From NCBI RefSeq assembly GCF_013377015.1, contig NZ_JACABA010000001.1:1283912-1347911 (forward strand): a stretch of 64,000 bases of DNA, given 5' to 3'. The position numbers and the translations under genes are program-made. The stretch is from Rhodopseudomonas sp. (GTDB lineage: Bacteria > Pseudomonadota > Alphaproteobacteria > Rhizobiales > Xanthobacteraceae). Position 1 is the stretch's first letter. Each line of letters starts with the position of its first letter. Positions 39,250-42,736 of this stretch are shown here, one piece after another. The notes beneath the pieces are model-generated. The model did no database searches and was not told the DNA's origin. It saw only the letters and a list, made by a program, of their open reading frames with translations.

Positions 39250-39987
39250 TTACCACTTCTCGCCGAACGGACGGATTTCCATCTCGAAGGTCCAGGCGCT
39301 TTTCGGCTGCTGGTACAGCTGCCAGTAGGAAGCGGCGACCGAAGATGGCGGCATCAGGAGATCGGGGTTGTTCAGCGCTTCCTTGCCCCACAGCTGCTCG
39401 CGGCGTTCGCGCACCCAGGCGGTGTCGACCCCGGAATCAATGATCAGATGAGCGACATGGATATTCTTCGGTCCCAACTCGCGGGCCATCGCCTGCGCCA
39501 CCGCGCGCAGCCCGAATTTGGCGCTGGCGAAGGCGGCGAAGCCGGAGCCGCCGCGCAGGCTGGCGGTGGCGCCGGTGAAGAAAATGTTGCCCTGCCCGCG
39601 CGCCAGCATCAGCCGCGCCGATTCTCGGCCGGCCAGAAAGCCGGCCCAGCACGCCATCTCCCAGACTTTGCGGAACACCCGGTCGGTGGTCTCCAGGATC
39701 GGGAAATTGACGTTGGCGCCGACGTTGAAGATCGTAACTTCCAGCGGCGCATGGGCGTCGGCGTCGTTGAGGAATGCGGTGACCTCGTCTTCCTTGCGGG
39801 CGTCGAGCGCCCGCGCGACAATTGAGCCGCCGGCCAGCTCGATCTCGCGCACCAGCGGCTCCAGCTTGGCGCCGTCGCGCCGTCCGGCGAACACGGTGAA
39901 CCCTTCAGCGGCGAATTTCTTCGCGATCTCGGCGCCAATATAGTCGCCAGCGCCGATCACCGCGACGGTAGCATTTCGCTTCAGCAA
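39250..39987 (-). CDS. SDR family oxidoreductase with Phe at the usual catalytic Tyr
   Basis: AVIGAGDYIGAEIAKKFAAEGFTVFAGRR; FAAFASAKFGL; TTG start proposed at 39987. Confidence 0.85.
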   Translation of the reverse strand: MLKRNATVAVIGAGDYIGAEIAKKFAAEGFTVFAGRRDGAKLEPLVREIELAGGSIVARALDARKEDEVTAFLNDADAHAPLEVTIFNVGANVNFPILETTDRVFRKVWEMACWAGFLAGRESARLMLARGQGNIFFTGATASLRGGSGFAAFASAKFGLRAVAQAMARELGPKNIHVAHLIIDSGVDTAWVRERREQLWGKEALNNPDLLMPPSSVAASYWQLYQQPKSAWTFEMEIRPFGEKW

Positions 39988-40041
39988 AGTAATTCTCCCG
40001 GATTGAATTGTCAGGACGATTCGGCCGCTACGACGAAAGCC

Positions 40042-40134
40042 CCTCATCTTGAGCAGCGGCGTCTTCGCCGCGTCTCGAAGGATGAGGAAAGAACAGGCTC
40101 ATGGTTCGAGACGGCGCAAAAACGCCTCCTCGCT
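40042..40134. repeat. REP-like two-part palindromic element
   Basis: CCTCATC (40042-40048)/GATGAGG (40081-40087) enclosing GCGGCG-TCTT-CGCCGC (40056-40071), then GGTTCGAGACGGCGCAAAAACGCCTCCTC. Confidence 0.6.
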
Positions 40135-40155
40135 ATTAGGCGTCGCGATTCGCAG

Positions 40156-40758
40156 CTAGGCGTACATCTCCTCAACCTCGCGCAACTGCTCCTTGCCGAA
40201 GAACATTTCGTCGCCGACGAAGAAGGTCGGCGAGCCGAACGCGCCGCGCTTCACCGCATCTTCGGTGTTGGCGATCAACCTGGCCTTGACCTCGGGCTCC
40301 TGGGCGCGGGCGAATAGTTTTGCCGCATCGAGGCCGGACTCGGTCAGCGCCTTCGCTGCCACCTCCGGATCGTCCATCTTCTTCGGCTCGACCCACATGT
40401 GGTGAAACGCGGCATCGACATATTTCTCGAACACGCCCTCGAGTTGCGCCGCGACCGCGGCGCGCATCAGGTTCAGCGTGTTGACCGGGAAATACGGGTT
40501 CATGACGTAGGGCTTGACCTTGAAGCGCTTGGTGAAACGCTCGGTCTCGATGGCGTGAAACTCGCGCTTGTTCTTGACCCCGGCCAGGGTTTCGACCGGC
40601 GACTTGTTGTTAGTGGCCTTGAAGATGCCGCCGAGCAGCACCGGCAAATAGGCGAATTTCACGCCGATCCGCGCCTCGATCGCGGGAATCGCCTCATGAC
40701 TGAGAAAGGCGTTGGGACTGCCGAAATCGAACAGGAATTGCGGGGTGGATTTGCTCAT
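40156..40758 (-). CDS. 2-hydroxychromene-2-carboxylate isomerase-like (DsbA/GST kappa fold)
   Basis: FLFDFGSPNAFLSHEAIPAIEARIGVKFAYLPVLLGGIFKATNN; GAFGSPTFFVGDEMFFGKEQL. Confidence 0.92.
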   Translation of the reverse strand: MSKSTPQFLFDFGSPNAFLSHEAIPAIEARIGVKFAYLPVLLGGIFKATNNKSPVETLAGVKNKREFHAIETERFTKRFKVKPYVMNPYFPVNTLNLMRAAVAAQLEGVFEKYVDAAFHHMWVEPKKMDDPEVAAKALTESGLDAAKLFARAQEPEVKARLIANTEDAVKRGAFGSPTFFVGDEMFFGKEQLREVEEMYA

Positions 40759-40814: not shown

Positions 40815-41483
40815 TCATTTCATGCCGGCCGGCGGTTGGCAATCGGCGGATCGGGCGGTGGTCGCGGCCTGATCTGGCGATGGCGCGAACGCCGCCGTCG
40901 CCAGCGCGCGCGCGTGATCGCGCACATCGATGGGCCAGCCCGCGGTCCGTTGCGCGAAACGCGCCGCATCGCCGGCGAATAGCGCGCGCACCACCTCCTC
41001 ATAGTCCGGCTTGTCTCCCGCCAACGCCGCGATGAAGCGATAGGTCGCTTCCTGCGCCTGCCGAATCCTGTCCTTGTCCTTGTTGGCGTGCCGCGCTTCG
41101 TCGACCAGCCGGCGCAGCGCCACCGATGCGCCGCCGCGCTGCTGCGCCAGCCACTCCCAGTGCCGCGGCAGCAGCGTGACTTCGCGCGCGACCACGCCGA
41201 GTTTCGGCCGGCCCGGGCCGCGCGGCGACGGCGGATCTGGCTCGGGCGGCGCATCTGGATCGCTCGGCACTGCGGCGTTCGGCAATCGTGCCAAAATCTC
41301 ATCGAGCGAGCCGCGCAGATCCATTTCGACCAGATGGCTGCTGGTACTGTCGAAGATCAGCAGCGAACCGTCGCCATGATCGAGACGCTCCTTGGCGAGT
41401 CGCGCCATGTCGCGGAGGTCACCCGAAGCGACGCGGCGATCGCCCTCGAAGGCAATGCAGCTAGGGCTGGCCGACACGGGCAT
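40815..41483 (-). CDS. DUF2239 family protein
   Basis: GRPKLGVVAREVTLLPRHWEWLAQQRGGASVALRRLVDEARHA, recalled as the DUF2239 pattern. Confidence 0.85.
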   Translation of the reverse strand: MPVSASPSCIAFEGDRRVASGDLRDMARLAKERLDHGDGSLLIFDSTSSHLVEMDLRGSLDEILARLPNAAVPSDPDAPPEPDPPSPRGPGRPKLGVVAREVTLLPRHWEWLAQQRGGASVALRRLVDEARHANKDKDRIRQAQEATYRFIAALAGDKPDYEEVVRALFAGDAARFAQRTAGWPIDVRDHARALATAAFAPSPDQAATTARSADCQPPAGMK

Positions 41484-41539
41484 GGCGAACTTCTCCTCGA
41501 CGGTTCGCCTCCCTTAGCCGGCGCGGTGGACTTCCGTCA

Positions 41540-41556
41540 ATATCACCCGGGTAAAA
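41540..41556 (+). promoter_or_regulatory. Palindromic operator-like site 1 (ATATCACCCGGGTAAAA)
   Basis: 16/17 identical to 42323-42339; between divergent DUF2239 and GST genes. Confidence 0.65.
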
Positions 41557-41640
41557 CATCGGGCATCCCTGCTCGCCGACGCTCGACATTCCGGCGGCCG
41601 GCTGGCACGACGGAACTTCACTGCGATCCCGAGGTTCAGC

Positions 41641-42306
41641 ATGCTCACCGTCCATCATCTCAACAATTCCCGCTCGCAGCGCGTGTTATGGGTGCTGGAG
41701 GAGCTTGGGGTCCCGTACGAGATCAAGCGCTACCAACGGCTGCCAAGCATGTTCGCGCCGCCGGAGCTGCGCGCGGTCCACCCGCTGGGCAAGTCGCCGG
41801 TGATTACCGACAACGGCAATACCGTCGCCGAGTCCGGCGCGATCATCGAATACATCATCGACACCTATGGTGAGGGCCGACTGATCCCGCCGCCGAAGAC
41901 GCCGGAACGGCTGCGCTACACCTATTGGCTGCATTACGCCGAGGGCTCGGCGATGTCGCCTTTGCTGCTGAAGCTGCTGTTCACGATGATCCCGCAGCGC
42001 GCGCCGGCGCTGATCCGGCCGCTGGTGAAGCTGATCACCACGCCGGTGCTGGCCACCCTGGTCGATCCGCAGCTGAAGCAGCACATGGCGTTCTGGGAAG
42101 GCGAGTTGGCGAAGAGCGAGTGGTTCGCCGGCGGCGACTTCACCGCCGCCGACATTCAGATGAGCTTCCCGCTGGAGGCCGCCTCGGCCCGCGCCGGGCT
42201 TGATCAAACCTATCCCAACGCATTGGCCTGGCTGGCGAAGATCCACGCTCGACCTGCCTACAAGCGGGCGCTGGAGCAGGGTGGCCCTTATACGGTGGGC
42301 GGCTGA
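41641..42306 (+). CDS. Glutathione S-transferase family protein
   Basis: LTVHHLNNSRSQRVLWVLEELGVPYEIKRYQR...HPLGKSPVITDNGNTVAESGAIIEYI. Confidence 0.95.
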   Translation: MLTVHHLNNSRSQRVLWVLEELGVPYEIKRYQRLPSMFAPPELRAVHPLGKSPVITDNGNTVAESGAIIEYIIDTYGEGRLIPPPKTPERLRYTYWLHYAEGSAMSPLLLKLLFTMIPQRAPALIRPLVKLITTPVLATLVDPQLKQHMAFWEGELAKSEWFAGGDFTAADIQMSFPLEAASARAGLDQTYPNALAWLAKIHARPAYKRALEQGGPYTVGG

Positions 42307-42322
42307 GCGCCAGCCCTACCTG

Positions 42323-42339
42323 ATATTACCCGGGTAAAA
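42323..42339 (+). promoter_or_regulatory. Palindromic operator-like site 2 (ATATTACCCGGGTAAAA)
   Basis: Perfect 12-bp palindrome TTACCCGGGTAA; about 62 bp upstream of the GIY-YIG ORF. Confidence 0.7.
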
Positions 42340-42400
42340 TTGACAATCCGGCTCGAGCCTGTTACGGACATCGGCAACCAATCCCGCGACAGGACCGCCG

Positions 42401-42736
42401 ATGCAGAAGGACAACCGAAAGGCCGCGATCGCGGCCTACAAGGAGCGCAAGGCCTGCGCCGGAATCTATGCGATCCGCTGCACGGCGTCGGCCCAGGTCT
42501 GGGTCGGACAAACCCCGCACCTCGACACGATCCAGAACCGGATCTGGTTCAGTTTGCGTCAGGGCAGTCATCCCAACCGCGCGCTGCAGGCGGCGTGGAC
42601 CCTGCACGGCGCCGATACTTTCGCATTCGAACCGCTCGAGCAATTGGCCGAAGAGGAATCGCGCTATGTGCGCGATGCGCTGTTGAAGGAACGCGCCGGC
42701 CATTGGCAATCGACGCTCGACGCGCGGGCGATGTAA
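42401..42736 (+). CDS. GIY-YIG nuclease-like small protein
   Basis: CAGIYAIRCTASAQVWVGQT...NRIWFSLRQGSHPNRALQAAW...FEPLEQL. Confidence 0.75.
   Translation: MQKDNRKAAIAAYKERKACAGIYAIRCTASAQVWVGQTPHLDTIQNRIWFSLRQGSHPNRALQAAWTLHGADTFAFEPLEQLAEEESRYVRDALLKERAGHWQSTLDARAM

Follow-up and report, generated by a model that had tools for sequence, protein, structure and literature searches.

The window, the whole 64,000-nucleotide stretch of Rhodopseudomonas DNA that was analyzed, contains two 17-bp palindromes in the intergenic gaps around genes for a DUF2239 protein, a GST, and a small GIY-YIG protein. The features are as follows, with the evidence for each in parentheses.

40815–41483, minus strand: DUF2239 gene (PF09998), 222 aa, proposed AT-hook/ribbon-helix-helix-like autoregulator (Pfam E 1.2e-74; operator in 78/80 loci; RHH_4 alignment)
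41535–41540, minus strand: putative −35 TTGACG of DUF2239 (sequence; conserved operator-TTGAC geometry)
41540–41556, minus strand: operator 1, ATATCACCCGGGTAAAA (TTTTACCCGGGTGATAT on the minus strand), in the putative DUF2239 promoter (same architecture at other DUF2239 promoters)
41641–42306, plus strand: GST, a clade-specific neighbor of unproven regulon membership (Pfam GST_N/GST_C; in the loci of one clade only)
42323–42339, plus strand: operator 2, ATATTACCCGGGTAAAA, 5' of the GIY-YIG gene (GIY-YIG orthologues likewise)
42340–42345, plus strand: putative −35 TTGACA of GIY-YIG (sequence; arrangement recurs in four g24 genomes and G100)
42401–42736, plus strand: small GIY-YIG-fold protein, 111 aa, candidate second regulon member with its canonical catalytic residues replaced (I-TevI profile, Foldseek, co-occurrence)

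The two palindromes had been reported in a preliminary description of this DNA, and their sequences, coordinates, 16/17 identity, separation of 783 bp, and distances from the genes were all reproduced: site 1 lies 57 and 85 bp from the starts of DUF2239 (41483) and GST (41641), respectively, and site 2 lies 62 bp from the GIY-YIG start (42401). Both had been assigned the same orientation, a label of little meaning for palindromes; the promoters they appear to serve face opposite ways, that of DUF2239 on the minus strand and that of GIY-YIG on the plus strand. Read in these directions, site 1 is TTTTACCCGGGTGATATTGACG and site 2 is ATATTACCCGGGTAAAATTGACA. At both promoters the operator center is 8 bp from the putative −35 (TTGAC[A/G]), and each has one operator, centered near −44.

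With up to one mismatch, TTACCCGGGTAA matches only these two sites in the 64-kb window, as compared with 0.02 matches expected, and none of 100 shuffled windows contained two matches. The 4.83-Mb genome of the host has three perfect matches to ATATYACCCGGGTAA, namely the two window sites and C12:740505 upstream of rpsL; the same pattern read backwards gave one match with up to two mismatches. The third site (L007:5500-5525, corresponding to G000:C12:740502-740519) is ~660 bp upstream of rpsL and follows a FemAB-like gene. A one-mismatch site is also present in the rpsL leader region of another genome (G024, L297:1479), at a position that is not homologous to that in the host. A clear promoter was seen at neither of these rpsL-leader sites.

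Distribution of the operator and its genes

The operator, with the consensus TTTTACCCGGGTAATAT, is present at the DUF2239 promoter in 78 of 80 named loci from at least 10 phyla, drawn from Pseudomonadota, Chlorobi, Acidobacteria, Verrucomicrobia, Planctomycetes, Chloroflexi, Armatimonadetes, Actinobacteria, Melainabacteria, Myxococcales, and others. The two exceptions have three tandem TACCAAGGTAA boxes (L094) and degenerate copies (L096). A strict pattern matched 96 of 108 DUF2239 loci, a 353-fold enrichment over the rest of those loci, and most of the divergent members of the family also have the operator upstream. The usual promoter layout is TTTTACCCGGGTAATATTGAC-N(6-8)-TTTTACCCGGGTAAAAT, in which operator 1 abuts the −35 (TTGAC) and operator 2 takes up the spacer and runs into the −10; of 57 intervals between operators, 50 are 26–29 bp, with a mode of 28. 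The upstream operator, 8 bp from the −35, stands alone in several relatives, and the one over the spacer and −10 stands alone in several Bradyrhizobium loci. In the host's order, all 27 DUF2239 loci, together with L039 and L040, have one or two recognizable copies within ~140 bp, and both G034 and G046 have two copies immediately 5' of DUF2239, with different neighboring genes. A recognizable operator is absent directly upstream of DUF2239 in L268, L269, L284, and L291; in L280 and L290 a GIY-YIG gene precedes DUF2239 in an apparent operon.

In three Glaciimonas/Collimonas-like loci (L094, L098, and L259) the central CG of the operator is replaced by AA, giving ACCAAGGT or TACCAAGGTA. A protein change that might accompany the AA-centered operators of these loci was looked for and not found. 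Coevolution of an R/K residue in the DUF2239 strand with the operator center was rejected, since canonical operators too are found with K, which leaves the ACCAAGGT operators unexplained.

The pattern AYCCGGRTRWWATTGAC was found in 19 of 199 genomes of the host's order, comprising 17 of the 26 that contain DUF2239 and 2 of the 173 that do not (Fisher 3e-16), and the GIY-YIG gene is present in 14 of the 199, all 14 of which contain DUF2239 (P ~9e-15); these P values are inflated by relatedness, although several families and phyla contribute. Both AYCCGGRTRWWATTGAC matches in genomes that lack DUF2239 are inside coding sequence. A looser pattern applied across the phylum matched 16 of 44 genomes with DUF2239 and 21 of 355 without, and 13 of 14 examined matches in the latter group are inside ORFs. 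The GIY-YIG gene is missing from 12 of the 26 genomes of the order that contain DUF2239.

Operator matches at other promoters are mainly those of an unlinked or divergent GIY-YIG gene. Outside DUF2239 promoters, AYCCGGRTRWWATTGAC occurs upstream of an unlinked GIY-YIG homologue in G100 and in four Bradyrhizobium-like (g24) genomes. The GIY-YIG genes that were inspected either have the operator at their promoter or directly follow DUF2239 (L090, L107, L127, and L136). The preliminary description had made its motif depend on conservation upstream of orthologues, and it is conserved there, at both DUF2239 and GIY-YIG orthologues; the proposal of a small regulon with a palindromic operator that includes these two genes is borne out by the operators at the orthologues' promoters. 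The conservation of the operator, its position, and its association with DUF2239 and GIY-YIG are evident at the level of sequence, and by these comparisons the palindromes are real control sites at the DUF2239 and GIY-YIG promoters.

The GST had also been placed in the regulon. It neighbors DUF2239 in 12 of the 80 named loci, which belong to one clade only, so that its inclusion as a core member is not supported, and it is probably a bystander in the window. Among close relatives the GST, GIY-YIG, and DUF2239 genes occur in varying order, while the operators accompany DUF2239 and GIY-YIG. Rhodopseudomonas AAP120 has its GIY-YIG gene between those for DUF2239 and GST, and in another genome of the genus (G001) the GIY-YIG and DUF2239 genes are directly divergent neighbors separated by the operators; a GST was not found in the 4.5-kb stretch around that pair. 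Genes for a DsbA-like protein and a short-chain dehydrogenase (window positions 39250–40758), downstream of DUF2239, are conserved neighbors within the clade.

Operator promoters also precede an alpha/beta hydrolase gene in G080 and a small ORF in G119, where a gene for a related hydrolase comes next. Those in G407, G410, and G466 have candidate lineage-specific targets, which we take from recognition of their sequences to be a MATE-like transporter (G407 and G410) and a SnoaL-like protein (G466). Such targets suggest a role in stress or detoxification. The loci of these candidate promoters (transporter, SnoaL-like, and hydrolases) are L312, L313, L310, L164, and L298, and each type was seen once or twice. 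In G085 (L295:884-1600), a two-operator promoter precedes a gene whose N terminus (CRAFDGHGMPISSPHADVAL) resembles that of DUF2239 and is followed by unrelated sequence. Capture of this promoter from DUF2239 was considered and rejected; the DNA comparison gave only a 30-bp promoter match.

The DUF2239 and GIY-YIG proteins

The core of DUF2239, GRPKLGVVxREVTLLPRHWxWLxxQxGGAS, is near-invariant in 64 sequences and can also be written GRPKLGVVAREVTLLPRHWEWL..Q.GGASVALRKLV, in which an AT-hook-like GRP precedes a part that resembles a ribbon-helix-helix (RHH) unit. Two RHH families were compared with DUF2239 by profile alignment. The RHH_1 profile alone gave no signal, and RHH_4 (PF13467) was tried after it because of the L-x-P-x-x-W pattern. 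The RHH_4 sequences were drawn from 30 loci of relatives, including a couple that were mis-extracted, and hhalign placed DUF2239 residues 94–129 in register on the strand-helix-helix with a score of 22.1; none of 200 column shuffles reached this value (best 18.9), and an RHH_1/RHH_4 control scored 22.8. The corresponding probabilities are 27% for DUF2239/RHH_4 and 42% for the control. An RHH_4 alignment with only four sequences did not score above the shuffled controls, and RHH families were absent from a Pfam scan of the 64 DUF2239 members at E ≤ 10. Given the 27% probability, the blank result with RHH_1, and the lack of an RHH match in Pfam, the support for an RHH unit is only moderate. In the AlphaFold monomer, residues 91–99 have pLDDT values below 50 and are followed by helices at 106–113 and 119–154; such an uncertain segment would be expected if the strand takes shape only on dimerization. 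A Foldseek search of the PDB found no solved relative of DUF2239 (best E 1.1), a library of anti-phage systems gave no match to it, and a literature search on the motif and on DUF2239, COG3644, and PF09998 returned nothing relevant.

The window GIY-YIG protein matches the I-TevI catalytic domain by sequence profile (E 1.4e-9) and by structure (Foldseek E of 6e-6 to 3e-5 against 1mk0 and 1ln0, with TM-scores of 0.76–0.82 normalized by the target), and it has the GIY-YIG fold. The matched PDB sequences themselves differ from one another at the two catalytic positions, 1mk0 being the E75A variant according to the structure match record and 1ln0 the R27A variant, and the alignments therefore mark both positions. 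I-TevI residues R27 and E75 align with I44 and A99 in the window protein, which is thus likely not a canonical nuclease, and none of 13 aligned GIY-YIG members has Glu at the second catalytic position. The same anti-phage library matched the protein to a homing-endonuclease model, a match of fold only.

Proposed regulation and its alternatives

DUF2239 is probably an autoregulator, and probably a repressor, with the window sites as its operators. We consider there to be a strong case, built on comparative sequence evidence, that the palindrome is the operator of DUF2239 acting as a dimeric DNA-binding regulator that represses its own gene, the GIY-YIG partner gene, and a few lineage-specific targets. 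DNA binding by DUF2239, repression, and its relief by a signal are what we infer. The ACCC/GGGT half-sites would be read by a ribbon-helix-helix unit formed by the invariant core, and the GRP segment may touch the AT-rich flanks. Dimers on one or two operators, ~28 bp apart in two-site promoters, would lie against the −35 and extend over the spacer and −10, blocking RNA polymerase; DUF2239 would thereby repress itself, its small GIY-YIG-fold partner, and those few other genes. Site 1 of the window would serve DUF2239 and site 2 GIY-YIG, until a signal relieves the repression.

The sign of the control could be the opposite. DUF2239 might be an activator for which the operator near −44 recruits polymerase and a second operator over the −10 provides negative feedback, and the single upstream operators in the window, centered near −44, and in several relatives, all 8 bp from the −35, are in a compatible position. 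We regard activation as unlikely, since most DUF2239 promoters add the spacer/−10 operator, and several Bradyrhizobium loci have that one alone. Somewhat less probable again is that a separate trans-acting transcription factor reads the palindrome and that DUF2239 is merely one of the regulated genes. The family is still a DUF, its RHH match is moderate, and its DNA binding is a prediction, all of which leave room for such a factor; however, it would need to follow DUF2239 across at least 10 phyla with an unchanged specificity while not being encoded beside it, and genomes that lack DUF2239 are almost devoid of promoter-positioned sites. Inspection of the recurrent neighbors, as unannotated clusters, across the 80 loci revealed no shared transcription factor, which is a weak negative result. 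The preliminary description had stated that no regulator gene is adjacent, a view that is not supported, since the regulator that best accounts for the pattern is DUF2239 itself.

That description had instead suggested a regulon of GST, DUF2239, and GIY-YIG for electrophile or DNA-damage stress under a trans-acting repressor. The GST between the two sites, and beside DUF2239 in 12 of the named loci, fits this reading, but the linkage is confined to one clade and was not seen beside the DUF2239/GIY-YIG pair of G001, and the GIY-YIG protein lacks the equivalents of R27 and E75; evidence for an electrophile or DNA-damage role was not found, and we give this regulon very little credence. Chance or neutral palindromes, for which the third copy in the rpsL leader region of the host could be cited, are effectively refuted by the 353-fold enrichment and the conservation in at least 10 phyla.

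If regulation by DUF2239 is correct, PF09998, a family with no assigned function, becomes a regulator whose operator and partner gene are defined and that can be tested in common laboratory bacteria. It is unusual for a local autoregulator to have an operator that varies so little between phyla, which suggests an ancient or widely transferred response to stress or a ligand. A broader proposal, to which we would give slightly less than even chances, is that DUF2239 founds a family of regulators with AT-hook and RHH-like parts, present in at least 10 phyla with one nearly invariant operator and controlling a catalytically dead GIY-YIG protein that serves it as a dedicated partner or effector rather than a nuclease.

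Comparison with known systems

The partner protein shares its fold with I-TevI and other GIY-YIG nucleases but differs in having I44 and A99 in place of R27 and E75 and in the absence of a targeting domain. Toxin-antitoxin operons with RHH antitoxins likewise combine a small autoregulator with a small partner of nuclease fold, autoregulation by DUF2239 being the predicted element of the likeness. However, the DUF2239 and GIY-YIG genes do not combine co-inheritance with adjacency as a toxin-antitoxin pair would: the partner is often unlinked, is absent in 12/26 genomes, and is without canonical catalytic residues. The RHH regulators (RHH_4, PF13467) have in common with DUF2239 a strand-helix-helix core that aligns in register (94–129), a palindromic operator, autoregulation, and tandem operators in the promoter, operator binding and autoregulation by DUF2239 again being predicted. 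DUF2239 differs from them in having neither a Pfam RHH match nor a solved relative, and it adds the GRP segment, an N-terminal alpha/beta domain, and a C-terminal helical domain to the shared core.
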